64,000 nt of DNA from Natronosalvus halobius (GTDB taxonomy: Archaea > Halobacteriota > Halobacteria > Halobacteriales > Natrialbaceae). Of the stretch, positions 34,244 through 43,133 are shown piece after piece. Every line of letters starts with the position of its first letter. Positions within the stretch are counted from its first letter, which is position 1. The stretch is taken from NCBI RefSeq assembly GCF_024138145.1, contig NZ_CP099997.1, positions 1,178,001 to 1,242,000 on the forward strand, written 5' to 3'. Under the pieces are notes generated by a model. That model was not told the origin of the DNA. It saw nothing but the letters and a program-made list of their open reading frames with translations, and did no database searches. The translations under genes were made by a program, and so were the position numbers.

Positions 34244-36841
34244 ATGGATCCGCGCACGCAAGAGCGCGTCGAGCGATGGGATTCCCGTCCGTTTTCCGGC
34301 GGCTACGACGGTCTCTCTTCACTCGCCGACGAGGAATTCTCCGGTGCCGTAACGACCGGCGGTGCCTGGGCATTCATGCTCAACGGACGCATCGTCGGCG
34401 TCGCTGACGGCGCTCTCGAACAGTTCGACGGAGCAACTGGCACGACCTACGAGGCGCCACACCCGTCCCTGCCACTGCTGTGTACGATGGACGAGCAGGG
34501 CGGCGAAACCAGAGCAAAGTACTACACAAACGACACGCCACTGAGCGAGGTCGACCAGACGCTCCAGGAGGGGTCGTTCACCGGCTACGTCGAACTGAGC
34601 GAACAGGTACTCAGCGGCGACTACTACCTCGTGTACTACGGCGGTCGACGGATGGCCGCGGCCTACATTGGGAACGCACAACGCCTCCTGAGCGGCGATG
34701 AGGCGTTCGAACGGGCCGACGACGAGGTCGGAATCTACGAGGTGGTCGACGTCGATATCGACATCCAGGACGTCCCCGGATCGGCGCCGACACCGGAGCC
34801 GACGTCCGGAGCCTCGACGGCATCAGCGAGGGGGTCCGGCGGGGCGAGCGAGACAGTCGGTGAGACCAGTACGGCGACCGACAGCGAGCGCGACGTCGAA
34901 TCGCAGTCCGAGCCGGTGTCCGATGGAACGAGCGATACCGCCGGTGGGATCACGACGAGTGCGACGGCCGAACCGGAATCGGAGCCAGTAGAGACGTCCG
35001 GCATCACGGAACCGGCGACCGAAGCCGACGTTCGAACTGATACTGGCTCGACCGTCGAACACGACGAACCCGAAGAACACGACGAACACAACGAACTCGA
35101 TGACGCCGAGACGGTCGACGACGAATCGAATGCCGATGCGCAGCCGATGCCCCCGGCGGGAGGTGAGAGCCGACCGGACGCGAGTGGCGAGTCCGGTCGC
35201 GGAGACGACGCGCCCGATACACCAACCGACGCCGGACCGGACGCGGCGACGCCCGTGGAAGATGCCGAACCGATGCCGCCGACCTCGAGCGACTCGCTCG
35301 ATCCGGAGGACGTGGAAGCCGCCGCGGAGGAACTCGGTGCCGACGGCGTTCCCTGGGAGGGTACCGACGAGGACGACGGGAGCGGCGAGTCTCGTGAGGC
35401 CCGCGAGGCCCGCGAGGCCCACGAGGCCCGCGAGGCCCGCGAGGACAACGAAGTCCAGGACGGCGACGAACGAGAGACAGACGGCCGAGCACCCGAAACC
35501 GACAACGAGCCGTCGGAGAGTGATCCGCTCGACGAACGCTTCAAGCAGGAAGAGCAATGGCGGGAAACTCGAAACATCCCCTCGATCGACCCGAAGAAGT
35601 CCTCACGTCCCGACCGGACGGACGACGACGGGTCGCGATCGCAATCGAACGCCGGAAGTCGGCGCCGAACGACGGGTGATCGGTCGCGCCAGTCTGGATC
35701 GGCGACTGCCTCGTCTGCGACCGGTGGGGCCTCGTCGACCCAGGCGTCGAACTCGAGTACCGGTCGTTCGAAGCCACAACAGGACGGGACCACCAGCGAA
35801 TCAGGGCAGGGTCGTGCTCGATCCACCGCTAGCACCGCGAGAAACGTCCCCCGGGAGACTCTCGAGGAGGACATGCTTGAGCGCGAGGACAAGATCGATC
35901 GACTCACTCAGCGCGTCGACGAACTCGAGCGAGAGAAGGGGACACTCGAAGAGCGCCAGCAGGAACTCGCGACCGAGCGCGACCGGTACCGCGAGCGCGC
36001 CGAGGAACTCTCGGCGACCGTCGACCGATTGCAACAACGCATCGAAACGCTCGAGACCGAACTCGAGCAGGTTCGAGCGGCCGACGCCGCGGGCGTCCCC
36101 GTCGACGGGACCAATCTCTCGCCCCAGGAGGCGCTGTCCAGGACCAACCTGTTCGTCCGGTACGCCTCGAAGAGTCAGCCGACGCTGGCGACGGCCCACG
36201 ATGAGAACGTGAGTCGCGAGGACGTCGCGGAGAACCTCCGTCTCGAACACCACACGCAGTTCGACGCGAGCGAGGTCGTCGTCGACGGCCAACCGTACGA
36301 GGCGTTCCTCGGGTCGCGGATCGAGTACCAGTTCGTCGAGTGGCTCGTCGCTATCCTGCCGTTCGAAATCCGTGATACCGGCCACGCGGACGGCCTCGGT
36401 GATCTCTACGACGCCCTCCCCCGCATCGATCGAGCCGAACTCGACGCCTCAGTCTCCCTCGACGGGGACGACACCGAGGGCGTTCCCGACGAAGTCGCAT
36501 TCGACGTCGTCGCATTCGACAAGATGGGAAATCCGTTGCTCGCGGCCAACCTCGATGGATCGCGCGATCCCGCCACCCAAACGGATCTCGAGACGCTGGA
36601 GGAATCCGTCTCGGCGGTCAAAGCCAACCACGGCGAACTCGCCGCAGCGTTTTTCGTCACCTCGAGCTTCTTCGAGCCGGGCGCCCTCGAGGTGACCGAG
36701 CAGGCGACCGGCGGCGGCGGCTTCCTCACGCGAGACTCACGGCTGAGTTACGTGTCGCTGTCGCGAAAACAGGGTGGGTATCACCTGTGCCTCGTGGAGT
36801 CGCGTTCGGGCGGCTTCCACATGAACGTCCCAGAACTCTAG
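34244..36841 (+). CDS. Large haloarchaeal protein: N-domain, acidic linker, coiled coil, C-domain
   Basis: 865 residues with clear modules. Residues 1-175: a folded domain (PFSGGYDGLSSLADEEFSG, YYLVYYGGRRMAAAYIG). About 180-540: an acidic, disordered linker with REA-type repeats (EAREAREA). About 540-615: a coiled coil (REDKIDRLTQRVDELERE and on). About 620-865: a second domain with EYQFVEWLVAILPFEIRD, VAFDVVAFDKMGNPLLAANLD and YHLCLVESRSGGFHMN. The second domain has the alpha/beta spacing of a nuclease-like fold, but no D-ExK set is seen. I do not recognise the family; it occurs across haloarchaea. No signal or TM segment, so cytoplasmic. Confidence 0.82.
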   Translation: MDPRTQERVERWDSRPFSGGYDGLSSLADEEFSGAVTTGGAWAFMLNGRIVGVADGALEQFDGATGTTYEAPHPSLPLLCTMDEQGGETRAKYYTNDTPLSEVDQTLQEGSFTGYVELSEQVLSGDYYLVYYGGRRMAAAYIGNAQRLLSGDEAFERADDEVGIYEVVDVDIDIQDVPGSAPTPEPTSGASTASARGSGGASETVGETSTATDSERDVESQSEPVSDGTSDTAGGITTSATAEPESEPVETSGITEPATEADVRTDTGSTVEHDEPEEHDEHNELDDAETVDDESNADAQPMPPAGGESRPDASGESGRGDDAPDTPTDAGPDAATPVEDAEPMPPTSSDSLDPEDVEAAAEELGADGVPWEGTDEDDGSGESREAREAREAHEAREAREDNEVQDGDERETDGRAPETDNEPSESDPLDERFKQEEQWRETRNIPSIDPKKSSRPDRTDDDGSRSQSNAGSRRRTTGDRSRQSGSATASSATGGASSTQASNSSTGRSKPQQDGTTSESGQGRARSTASTARNVPRETLEEDMLEREDKIDRLTQRVDELEREKGTLEERQQELATERDRYRERAEELSATVDRLQQRIETLETELEQVRAADAAGVPVDGTNLSPQEALSRTNLFVRYASKSQPTLATAHDENVSREDVAENLRLEHHTQFDASEVVVDGQPYEAFLGSRIEYQFVEWLVAILPFEIRDTGHADGLGDLYDALPRIDRAELDASVSLDGDDTEGVPDEVAFDVVAFDKMGNPLLAANLDGSRDPATQTDLETLEESVSAVKANHGELAAAFFVTSSFFEPGALEVTEQATGGGGFLTRDSRLSYVSLSRKQGGYHLCLVESRSGGFHMNVPEL

Positions 36842-38911: not shown

Positions 38912-41419
38912 TCACGCGATCGGGTAGGCGAGCAGTAGCTGTTCTTCCGGCCAGTAAAATCGGCCGTCGTAGTAGATCGGGGCTTCGGACTCCGCGAGAA
39001 AGTCGGTCACTGATCCAGGATCGACCTCGAACGAGAGCGGATTCGGTTGCAGGCGCTTTCCGTCACCCCAGTTTGGGACCGCGTATCCCCCGACTGGGTC
39101 GATGGGGAACGGAACGGCCGTTACCCGGAGTCCGTCTGAATCTCCTCGTGCGTCTCCGTCATTGGCTGTGCACTCGTCATCGCCCTCCTTACTGGCTCGA
39201 CGGCCGCCAGCAGATAGCACGTAAATCAGGGTCGGCCACCAGCTAGCGACGAACCGGTAGCTGCCGTCGCCGACGACGGCTCGCGGCTGGGTGTTGTCAG
39301 TGCTGGCCGCACACTGCGTTGCCGTGGCCAAACTGTGGCCGTACAGGAGCAGTTCGCCGACGGTCGTGTTGCCCGAGCGGCCGACATCGTCGTCGTGGTC
39401 TCCACCCACTCCAGCGGTCCCGGCGACCCCGGGGACCCCGACGGCTCCGGCGACGCTCCCGTGCTCGACGAGGTCGACGGCGAGCGACCGGGGCCCGTCG
39501 ATCTGAAACAGCTGGACGTTGTTCTCCTCCAGCGATGCCGGTTCGAGGACGCCGTCACGACAGCGAATACCGGCTTCGGAGCAGTCACCGATGACGTGGA
39601 GGAAGTCCACTCCCGTCTCGAAGACATCGGCGAGTTCCTCGCGAGAGGGGTCCTCAAGTGCCGTCACGGTCGGTGAGAGCACGTCGTCTCGTCGTCGGTA
39701 GCGATCGACGACCGAGGCTCGTTCCGCGTCCGCGATTTCGTCCGTGAACGCGACGACCACGGCCCGCTGTCGACGGTCGGCTCCGAGGTATTCGAGGCGA
39801 TTGCGGTAGGCGGCGGGCATCGACGTAAACGCGGCGTCGGTTGGATCCGACGTGACTCCACCCGGCTGGAGGCGACCTCGCAGCCGAGAAATTGCCTCGA
39901 AACGCTGTTCGTTGTTCGAGGGAAAATCGACTGCCGATCGATTCTTCTCGGTCGTTTTCGTCGCTTTCATCGCTTCCGTCCCATCAATCACGTCAGTCGC
40001 GTCCGTCGGCTCTGCCACCTCTTTCGTCGCCTCTGTCGTCTCCATCGCCTCCGTTGTCTCTGTCACTTCAGCCACTTTAGTCCCCTCCGTCGCCTCCGCC
40101 ACCTTCGGAAGCTCGATCGCCGCCATATCGTACAACAGATGTGGAAGCTGAGCAACCGACTCCGGCGACGGCTCGACCGTCATCCGGTACGGCCAGGAGG
40201 GAAGCGCGTCCTCGAGCGGCGGCCCCGGAAACGAGAGATAGGCCTCGAGACGCTCCGCGAGCGGTGCCTCGACACACGGCTCGAGGTCGATTCCGGCCGA
40301 CTCGAGGATACTGTGCGCCCGAACAGTCCACTCCGAATCGTCGTACCACGTGGCGAGCATGTCGAGGAAGAAGACTCGCTTCAACAGCGTCGCTGCCTGC
40401 CCTTCGAACGCCGGGAGCGGGTCGAACTCGTGGTGGACGTCGACAGCAGGCGCACGAAGGATCGGTGCCGAGTCGTCCTGGACACTGACGCGAGCCCCTA
40501 GATAGTACGCCAGTGGAGCCACCGGCAGGAGTGCCGAGAGCGAGTCCGGAATCAGGAGTTCGATCCCGGTATCGGGTGTCGACGCCTCGACGGCCGCTGG
40601 CACGGTCGTCTCAGAACCGAGGCGTATCGTCGGGGGATAGCCCCGATGGTTTCGGTGTACTCGGTCGACCGTCGTCGTCGTGATGGCGGCGCCGAGGTGG
40701 GATACGGCCGTTGCAAACCCCGCTGTCGTGGGTTCGACGGTCAGCTCGTGGCGCGGGTAGTCGACGTACGTCTTGAAGCCGAAGGTGACCGTCGTGGGGT
40801 GGGGAAACGATATCGTGAGGCCGGATTCCGGCCGGTACCTGATCGTTCCGGCGCCGTCGAAGCAGAGGTGGACAATGATGCTCGATTCGACCGAACACCG
40901 GTACTGTCCCTCGGGTAACGAGTACCGGACTGGTCGGTCGGTGCCGACGTCGTCGCGGATGGCAGCCGTCGTTTGTCCGTTCCGTTCGACCTGAAACGAG
41001 CCGTCGGATCGGGTGACTTTGAGGAAGTTCTGCAGGTCGTACCTGACCTCCGTGACTCGAGCCGTGACTGCCGCGTCGACCTGCTCGTCGATGTCGCGGT
41101 CGTTCACGAACGGATCCCACCCGGTCAGACCAAACGAGAGCTCGTTCCCTGCGATGTCGGTTACGTTGAGGGACGAACTGGCGGTGTAGAACGTGACGTC
41201 GACGAGGTCGATGTTCGGGTTGGGGTTGGCACCGGCGCCGTTCACGCCATCACCCCCGGCACCAACGTGGCAGCCTTTTGGGGAACTCGAGAGGTTCGAG
41301 GGGGTCGAGTGAGTCGGGCGAGTCGGGCGAATTGGCTGGGTCGAGTGAATCGGGCGGATTGAGCGAGTCGAACGAGTCGAGCGAGTCGAACGAGTCGAGT
41401 AAACCGAATCACTGGACAT
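38912..41419 (-). CDS. CHAT-like protein lacking catalytic His and Cys
   Basis: 835 residues from ATG 41419, which overlaps the upstream kinase stop by 11 bases. The first 45 residues are a Ser-Thr-Arg/Pro repeat. A conserved beta-rich region follows (LVDVTFYTASSSLNVTD, SLPEGQYRCSVESS, SALLPVAPLAYYLGARV), then a Glu/Thr linker near residue 440-490. The last third is CHAT-like: RAVVVAFTDEIADAERASVV, DFLHVIGDCSEAGIRCRDG, VEHGSVAGAVGVPG, VGELLLYGHSLATA. Haloarchaeal CHAT proteases normally read HYIGH and LNACQS; here these are HVIGD (about residue 608) and IDGPRS (about 640), so both catalytic residues are gone. Likely a pseudo-protease. Confidence 0.75.
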   Translation of the reverse strand: MSSDSVYSTRSTRSTRSTRSIRPIHSTQPIRPTRPTHSTPSNLSSSPKGCHVGAGGDGVNGAGANPNPNIDLVDVTFYTASSSLNVTDIAGNELSFGLTGWDPFVNDRDIDEQVDAAVTARVTEVRYDLQNFLKVTRSDGSFQVERNGQTTAAIRDDVGTDRPVRYSLPEGQYRCSVESSIIVHLCFDGAGTIRYRPESGLTISFPHPTTVTFGFKTYVDYPRHELTVEPTTAGFATAVSHLGAAITTTTVDRVHRNHRGYPPTIRLGSETTVPAAVEASTPDTGIELLIPDSLSALLPVAPLAYYLGARVSVQDDSAPILRAPAVDVHHEFDPLPAFEGQAATLLKRVFFLDMLATWYDDSEWTVRAHSILESAGIDLEPCVEAPLAERLEAYLSFPGPPLEDALPSWPYRMTVEPSPESVAQLPHLLYDMAAIELPKVAEATEGTKVAEVTETTEAMETTEATKEVAEPTDATDVIDGTEAMKATKTTEKNRSAVDFPSNNEQRFEAISRLRGRLQPGGVTSDPTDAAFTSMPAAYRNRLEYLGADRRQRAVVVAFTDEIADAERASVVDRYRRRDDVLSPTVTALEDPSREELADVFETGVDFLHVIGDCSEAGIRCRDGVLEPASLEENNVQLFQIDGPRSLAVDLVEHGSVAGAVGVPGVAGTAGVGGDHDDDVGRSGNTTVGELLLYGHSLATATQCAASTDNTQPRAVVGDGSYRFVASWWPTLIYVLSAGGRRASKEGDDECTANDGDARGDSDGLRVTAVPFPIDPVGGYAVPNWGDGKRLQPNPLSFEVDPGSVTDFLAESEAPIYYDGRFYWPEEQLLLAYPIA
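41300..41405. repeat. cgagtcg-type repeats inside the CHAT-like gene
   Basis: Repeats of gagtcg(a/g)(a/g)cg units (heptamer-like) encode the Ser-Thr-Arg tract at the start of the CHAT-like protein. Similar expansions appear in several other genes of the window. Confidence 0.7.
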
Positions 41420-43133
41420 CACCGTTCGATTCCGGCACCGCCGACGAATCGGGCGTTTCAATCGCGGATGCGCTGTTGAGGTAGACGCCCGTGAACTCGA
41501 ATCGGGCTCCACCGGCCGACCCGTCGGTACACTCGACACTCCAGCCGTGTTCCTCGGCGATTCGCTCGACGATAGCGAGACCGAGTCCGGTACTCCCGGA
41601 GCCCGAACTGTAGCCGGATTCGAATACGGCCTCGCGTTCAGACGGCGGGATGCCCGGGCCGTCGTCCTCGACCGCGAATCCGTCATCGCACGTGCCGACT
41701 CGGACGCAGACCGCCGCTTTGCCTCGCCCTCCTGGCGAATCGTCATTGGGTCCGGGTTCGGAAGAGCCCGAAGCGGTCCCCTGCTCCACGGCGTCGTCGG
41801 CACGAGATCCGTGCTGATCGCGGGCCGAACCGTGTTCCACCGAATTCCGGAACAGGTTCTCGAACAACTGGAGCAAACGCGTCGGGTCCGCATCGATCCA
41901 GACACCGCCATCGTCCAGTTCGAGACGGGCGTCTCGAGTGTCGACGTGTTCCCAGGCCTGCTCGGCGACGGCGGACAGTCTGACTGGCTCGAGGGTCCCC
42001 GTCCCGTCGCCCTTGCGAGCGACCGCCAGCACGTCGTCGATGAGCTGTTCCATTCTGTCGTGAGCCTGCTGGATTTCGGCGACCGCGTCGTGGTCGGTGC
42101 CGAGTTCGTCCCGGACGAATCCCAGATAGCCGTTCGCAACGGTGAGGGGATTTCGGAGGTCGTGGCTAACGATACTCGCGAACTGGTCGAGGCGCTCGTT
42201 CTGTCGCTCGAGTTCGCGTTCCCGGACTTTCAGCGCGGTGAGGTCGGTGTAGATCCGGTATCCACGGGTCGTTTCGTCACCCGTTACTATGGGGACCGTT
42301 CGGCGCAAGAACGGTCGCGGTCCGGAGGGCGTATTTCTGACGACTTCGGATTCGGTCTCTCCGTCAGGTGCGTGTTCGAGTAACGGCGTTCGGGTGGGGT
42401 CGTCACCTCCGTCGTCGGGTGCCTCGAGTACGTCCGCGATCGATTCGCCGACGATCGACTCGGCGTCATGCCCGAAGACGCGAACGAACGCGGAGTTGAC
42501 GCGCTCGATCCGGTAGCGCTCGCCTTCGATTCGGTACTGGACGGCCGCGTCGGAAACGTTCTCGAACAGCGCCGCGAATCGATCGCGTTCGGTCTCCAGC
42601 GCCGCCTCGTATTCGACGCTGGTTCGAGCGTTGACCACGATTGCGACGAGCGTCTCGCCGATTCGACGGTCGAGGTCGGAAAACGCACCGGGTTCCGACG
42701 AGAACACCTGAAATACGCCGTCGTCGGCGATGGGAATGGAGAGGACCGAGCGAAAAGAGTCGCACGTCGGGGCGGCGTCGGCGTCGTCCCGGAGGTCGTC
42801 GACAAGGATGGTGGATCCGGTCGCGAGCGTTCGACCGGCGATGCCGGCGTCCGCCGATAGCGCCTGGCCGGGAATCAAGTGATTCGCGTACACTGCCCGG
42901 GGGATCAAGCGACCGTCTTGCTGCGTACAGATGCTCGCGGCTTCGAACGACAGCGCGTCCGCCGCCGCGATCAGCGCGTGCTCGTAGACCGATTCGACGG
43001 ACGTACACGCATCGAGTGTCGTCGCAATATCGCCGAGTCGTCCGATGGATTCGACGGTCTTCGAGGCAACCATATTCGAGAGGAGAGAGACCAGCGTTCG
43101 ACGCCGTCGTCTCGTTTCTTTCTTCTCACCCAA
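41409..43133 (-). CDS. GAF-PAS sensor histidine kinase
   Basis: 574 residues, no clear membrane helix. Domains in order: GAF (about 25-175, YANHLIPGQALSADAGIAGRTL), PAS (about 185-300, FAALFENVSDAAVQYRIEGE), HisKA with H-box FASIVSHDLRNPLTV (His324), then HATPase_c with N-box NLFRNSVEHG, DDGPGIP and GSTGLGLAIVERIAEEHG. An acidic linker splits the ATPase domain. A Met at 43073 is also a possible start: the TATA box tttatatg on the minus strand at 43134-43141 fits that start better. No response regulator is adjacent; it overlaps the CHAT-like gene, so these two are co-expressed. Confidence 0.9.
   Translation of the reverse strand: MGEKKETRRRRRTLVSLLSNMVASKTVESIGRLGDIATTLDACTSVESVYEHALIAAADALSFEAASICTQQDGRLIPRAVYANHLIPGQALSADAGIAGRTLATGSTILVDDLRDDADAAPTCDSFRSVLSIPIADDGVFQVFSSEPGAFSDLDRRIGETLVAIVVNARTSVEYEAALETERDRFAALFENVSDAAVQYRIEGERYRIERVNSAFVRVFGHDAESIVGESIADVLEAPDDGGDDPTRTPLLEHAPDGETESEVVRNTPSGPRPFLRRTVPIVTGDETTRGYRIYTDLTALKVRERELERQNERLDQFASIVSHDLRNPLTVANGYLGFVRDELGTDHDAVAEIQQAHDRMEQLIDDVLAVARKGDGTGTLEPVRLSAVAEQAWEHVDTRDARLELDDGGVWIDADPTRLLQLFENLFRNSVEHGSARDQHGSRADDAVEQGTASGSSEPGPNDDSPGGRGKAAVCVRVGTCDDGFAVEDDGPGIPPSEREAVFESGYSSGSGSTGLGLAIVERIAEEHGWSVECTDGSAGGARFEFTGVYLNSASAIETPDSSAVPESNGDVQ

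Follow-up and report, generated by a model that had tools for sequence, protein, structure and literature searches.

Inactive caspase homologues regulate active ones. To our knowledge, descriptions of pseudo-caspases and pseudo-CHAT proteins usually concern single proteins without a known partner. Among the systems described so far, the CHAT proteases (PF12770) comprise Csx29/TPR-CHAT of Craspase as well as SAVED-CHAT. In bacterial pseudo-orthocaspases, which possess the caspase fold but show a conserved loss of the His-Cys dyad, Tyr and Ser are reported to take the place of the two residues (PMC6426788). In addition, a CHAT-like domain is part of the transmembrane anti-sigma factor DdvA (PDB 8rw5, 8rot). 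On the kinase side, haloarchaea possess GAF/PAS histidine kinases.

The window, i.e., the whole stretch of DNA analysed here (64,000 nucleotides), contains the gene of a putative CHAT-type protein devoid of the catalytic dyad (pseudo-CHAT) and, directly upstream, that of a histidine kinase. The following features, given in window coordinates, were delineated:

38912..41419 (-): pseudo-CHAT protein ORF, 835 aa, from ATG at 41419 to the stop at 38912 without interruption
41409..43133 (-): GAF-PAS-HisKA-HATPase histidine kinase of cytoplasmic type, 574 aa, directly upstream of the pseudo-CHAT ORF with an 11 bp overlap
41246..41419 (-): gapped low-complexity N-terminal tail, possibly untranslated
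41245 (-): GTG, alternative start of the pseudo-CHAT ORF
40106..41212 (-): residues 70-438, N-terminal region rich in beta structure, then mixed alpha/beta (AlphaFold2)
39785..40105 (-): residues 439-545, T/E-rich linker and beginning of the next segment (AlphaFold2)
39242..39787 (-): residues 545-726, predicted caspase/CHAT-fold domain without catalytic dyad (AlphaFold2 and structural alignment)
39584..39586 (-): Asp612, at the position of the catalytic His
39497..39499 (-): Asp641, in place of the Asn of the NAC motif (by alignment; residue 583 of the model)
39491..39493 (-): Pro643, at the position of the catalytic Cys

Like CHAT proteases, the window protein has the predicted fold (Z 11-13), with segments equivalent to hHxxGx and NAC in register, but it possesses neither the catalytic His nor the catalytic Cys, lacks any CRISPR or nuclease context and features a different N-terminal domain. 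With the pseudo-orthocaspases it shares the conserved loss of the His-Cys dyad within a caspase fold; it differs from them (PMC6426788) in that the dead clade mostly carries Asp/Glu and Pro/Thr/Ala at the dyad positions and has a kinase partner. The Tyr/Ser replacement is present in no member of the family studied here, the window protein reading Asp and Pro. DdvA resembles it by harbouring a caspase-like domain within a regulatory protein (structural match with Z 13.6), yet constitutes a single anti-sigma protein with membrane segments and no kinase. The partner gene itself is by Pfam an ordinary member of the haloarchaeal GAF/PAS histidine kinases, whereas its lineage is encoded together with pseudo-CHAT rather than with a receiver protein. 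Unlike a two-component system, the pair is devoid of a receiver-domain partner in its operon: of 25 receiver matches, none falls inside the window.

As modelled confidently by AlphaFold2 (pLDDT 83.9, pTM 0.85), the window protein has a beta-rich part towards the N-terminus and an alpha/beta domain towards the C-terminus, and a structural aligner matched this domain to caspase-like structures, namely gingipain (Z 14.5), DdvA (13.6), separase (13.2), SAVED-CHAT (12.9) and Csx29 (11.1). The model of L003, an active relative (pLDDT 88.8, pTM 0.88), reached Z 20.6 with gingipain and 17.7 with SAVED-CHAT. Since Foldseek E-values alone were not significant for the models (best 2e-3), and the caspase-like matches were separated only by this second look, the assignment of the fold depends on the structural aligner together with a weak Pfam CHAT match, in which distant active relatives scored 13.8-15.4 bits against PF12770, below the cut-off of 24, and the window protein yielded no match. 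Pfam, NCBIfam and PADLOC assigned no family to the window protein; 16 active relatives likewise received none from Pfam or NCBIfam, nor did the two tried with PADLOC, and a PDB sequence search with both profiles gave no matches. Homology to the relatives possessing His and Cys extends over the full length (HHalign probability 100, E 8e-105, 659 columns), and the haloarchaeal CHAT-like family is unnamed, its members being mostly annotated as 'hypothetical protein'. Taken together, the window ORF is predicted to adopt a caspase/CHAT fold (clan CD, caspase-hemoglobinase alpha/beta). The models thereby support the CHAT-type fold that the original prediction had proposed from the letters of the DNA, and the large beta-rich N-terminal region said to be kept is indeed retained.

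The selective constraint on the gene was estimated as omega by comparing it with two orthologues from congeners. The N-terminal domains show values of 0.16-0.19 and the CHAT part values of 0.23-0.31, as opposed to 0.37-0.80 in the linker and 0.57-0.61 in the first 69 codons. The pseudo-CHAT protein is maintained under continuing purifying selection, and residues 70-438 are its most constrained part. Residues of about 439-500 form a disordered T/E-rich linker, which has pLDDT values below 50 at model positions 384-439 and is rich in indels between orthologues; runs of Thr/Glu codons at 39960-40110 of the window vary in length between them. At the other end, homology of the protein to its relatives starts near residue 70. 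Because the first 58-69 codons are gapped, of low complexity and under weak constraint (omega about 0.6), translation may actually begin at the GTG at 41245, and the tail upstream of it may be untranslated; short-period repeats (TCGACTCG-like) at 41290-41400, too, differ in length between orthologues. A scan for promoters and terminators, for which the bacterial consensus was applied, returned nothing usable. The full-length frame stated previously is confirmed, with the reservation just given for its first codons.

All motifs quoted in the original prediction are present in the window ORF, which reads DFLHVIGDC, GIRCRDG, IDGPRS and GSVAGA; active relatives read FVHYIGHC...GLRCPDG...FFLNACGSY...GSVAGA. 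Alignment with these relatives, in which the His and the Asn-Ala-Cys segment are invariant, bears out both inferred losses, i.e., the replacement of the catalytic His by Asp612 and that of the catalytic Cys by Pro643 within IDGPRS, and no His or Cys has been displaced into the site, so that neither this nor the absence of a CHAT fold, named beforehand as refuting outcomes, was encountered. Residue counts were made for 83 active and 47 dead proteins with near-duplicates excluded. The two catalytic positions, which in active CHAT proteases close the first catalytic strand and the next one, carry His and Cys, respectively, in 83/83 active relatives, while Cys is absent from its position in 47/47 pseudo members, mostly in favour of Pro, Thr or Ala. 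At the His position, the latter carry Asp (20), Glu (11), Asn (5), Arg (3), Pro (3), Ser (2), Thr (2) or His (1), hence an acidic residue in 31/47. By loss of both residues, the product of the window ORF would be unable to cut by the His-Cys mechanism. The clearest switch between active and dead proteins across the whole protein is residue 641, which is Asn in all 83 active proteins, as opposed to Asp in 42 and Glu in 4 of the 47 pseudo members. The residues next to it, formerly Ala and Cys, are variable in dead proteins. Since residue 641 is acidic in 46/47 while its neighbours vary, the dead site has changed and kept one new acidic residue; it is altered and not merely eroded.

To trace the loss, 134 relatives were collected across Halobacteria and a tree was built without the two catalytic segments (an earlier version comprised 70 rows). 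In this tree, 49 dead proteins constitute one clade (SH-aLRT 99-100), outside of which 83 proteins with both residues are placed. The loss, for which a family alignment had been suggested as a check, is conserved in these 49 proteins; on the tree it has one origin in this clade and is a clade property, not a local accident. The clade falls into two main parts, the window lineage and the lineage of L002, and its named carriers include Natrialba, Halopiger and Halovivax. The window lineage is present in 23/125 genomes of the family, with scores of at least 823 bits versus at most 433 bits, and among 292 genomes of the class L177 is the only strong match outside the family. A locus designated L188 (G178:C1:2628000-2644000) was recorded as the only module outside the family of the window when about 220 other genomes were searched, which possibly reflects horizontal transfer. 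The genome of the window (3.85 Mb) encodes three more full-length relatives: L002 reads GDC/LDG and is, with both residues lost, its only other pseudo-CHAT, while L003 (GHC/NAC) and L004 (GHI/NAC) are both His/Cys copies. A separate, second loss of the dyad (P/S and A/A) was observed at L198:1797-4157 (+) and L221:1168-3864 (+), without kinase, and another CHAT relative lies directly downstream of the L221 copy. Dyad loss therefore does not require such a kinase.

The kinase upstream of pseudo-CHAT in the window has intact H, N, G1 and G2 boxes, including the HisKA phosphoacceptor His and the HATPase N/G boxes, carries only cytoplasmic-type sensor domains (GAF, PAS) according to Pfam, and evolves with an omega of 0.21-0.27. 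A kinase of the same family occupies the same place at 27/27 loci of the window lineage (23 genomes) and adjoins all L002-lineage loci for which the surroundings were retrieved, including L177 outside the family. At all dead-clade loci with examined flanks, kinase and dead protein are encoded on the same strand and usually overlap. Of the active loci, 68 had at least 1 kb of sequence on either side, and not one of them has a same-strand kinase of the module family; these 68 loci featured one opposite-strand kinase and one 29-bit match. As the genome of the window contains 33 HisKA genes, a random gene has a chance of about 1% of a same-strand kinase neighbour. Among these 33, the window kinase has its closest paralogue beside L002, at 328 bits, the runner-up scoring 248. 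Moreover, the 41 top-scoring kinases in 125 genomes all adjoin a pseudo-CHAT gene, which the next tier examined does not, but the score gap is partly circular because the profile was built from module kinases. The next-nearest kinases to the module family (L138, L144-L156) have no CHAT neighbour. At L129:5604-13089 (-), three pseudo-CHAT genes in tandem were observed with one common kinase of the module family.

Evolution of the two genes is correlated as well. For 41 pairs, the distances among kinases and among CHAT proteins correlate with a Mantel r of 0.94, and r remains 0.91 inside the paralogue-rich L002 lineage, neither value being reached in any of 5000 permutations. In much of its branching, the kinase tree agrees with the CHAT tree, although operon linkage by itself yields correlated distances. 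Support for grouping all module kinases on one branch is weak (57). With respect to gene order, the kinase comes first in 33 pairs and CHAT in 8; on the kinase tree, the order switched at least twice with adjacency kept. Furthermore, since the association arose once, it represents one evolutionary event followed by long retention, not many independent events.

The coincidence of the dyad loss with an adjacent histidine kinase throughout the clade is the main point that the original prediction missed. Its suggestion of selection for a binding or scaffold role holds with regard to purifying selection, while the binding role itself has not been demonstrated; as the loss goes along with the kinase across the whole clade, that general suggestion becomes a specific partner hypothesis. 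We propose that the pseudoprotease is a regulatory or sensory partner of the adjacent kinase, with which it forms a signalling complex, and assign to this reading a probability of roughly 60%. According to this model, a haloarchaeal CHAT/caspase-fold protein that formerly possessed a His-Cys dyad would have turned into a dead pseudoprotease and become permanently paired with the histidine kinase whose gene immediately precedes its own in the operon. Binding of a ligand or protein by the beta-rich N-terminal region and/or the dead cleft of the kinase-bound pseudo-CHAT would switch the autokinase activity of the GAF-PAS protein, and the kinase would then pass its phosphate to a receiver encoded at another locus. 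There is good support for the two genes forming a functional unit. On the other hand, physical binding, the direction of signalling and the downstream receiver are inferred, without interaction data or a model of the complex.

Several other explanations remain to be weighed against this partnership. The one closest to the original prediction, a free-standing binding or scaffold protein beside which the kinase persists as functionless inherited synteny, draws on the window locus occupying an old syntenic position next to conserved genes, among them a purA-like gene in convergent orientation. The other subclade, however, resides at unrelated places, and synteny alone is hard-pressed to explain a linkage that was retained when the order flipped at least twice, which renders this explanation unlikely. 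Similarly doubtful is a regulation of active CHAT paralogues in the same cell, with the kinase setting only the timing of production or modification of pseudo-CHAT: candidates for such control exist, given that canonical-like members occur in 125/125 genomes and L003 and L004 accompany the window protein, but active copies are equally universal in genomes without a pseudo member and are unlinked to pseudo-CHAT, and the strict kinase linkage would be left unexplained. A decaying pseudogene, to which the loss of both catalytic residues and the low-complexity insertions could point, is ruled out by the omega of 0.16-0.31, and full-length frames persist in about 30 genomes; its likelihood is practically nil.

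The altered site itself permits two further interpretations. Asp641 could serve as phosphoacceptor of the paired kinase or as part of a metal or ligand site, rendering the caspase-fold protein an output module, not a sensor. This would fit the nearly uniform switch at residue 641 amid variable neighbours, the frequent Asp/Glu at the His position, and an intact kinase without a receiver encoded nearby. Nevertheless, the second acidic position is not conserved, the change from Asn to Asp may be mere inheritance from one ancestor, and neither a receiver-like lysine nor a metal triad has been shown, so that we regard this repurposing as quite improbable. The bolder version, by which the conserved Asp in place of the NAC Asn would make the caspase-fold protein a new kind of response regulator phosphorylated by the kinase, lacks direct support and is a long shot. 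Finally, pseudo-CHAT might have remained an enzyme whose catalysis relies on residues at shifted positions, for instance His608 and Cys620, which are conserved in 44/47 and 43/47 members of the pseudo clade, respectively. Yet both are invariant in the 83 active members besides the true dyad and hence look structural; His608, Cys620, Asp622 and Gly623 are retained in active and dead groups alike. The shifted dyad was set aside on these grounds as barely conceivable.

In the clade described here, one ancestral catalytic loss coincides with linkage to one histidine-kinase lineage, a linkage that was not broken by paralogy, by flips in gene order or by spread into another family. No earlier description of a pair of pseudo-CHAT and histidine kinase was found in searchable papers, and a literature search confined to CC-licensed papers retrieved nothing on CHAT-kinase pairs or haloarchaeal CHAT proteins; the pair thus seems new. 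With its two defined genes, it allows the transition from a protease to a partner in signalling to be tested in genetically workable haloarchaea, active sisters serving as controls.

Elsewhere in the window, inspection by eye of an 865-aa ORF at 34244-36841 (+) showed a middle part that is acidic, of low complexity and very long, as well as a stretch resembling a coiled coil. Moreover, in four genomes a large receiver-PAS-GAF hybrid kinase is encoded near the L002-type module (L116:1976-5296, L119:1714-5085, L125:2314-5466 and L127:12522-15737; domains checked in L116 and L125). In two of them it lies directly upstream, and it represents a possible third component.
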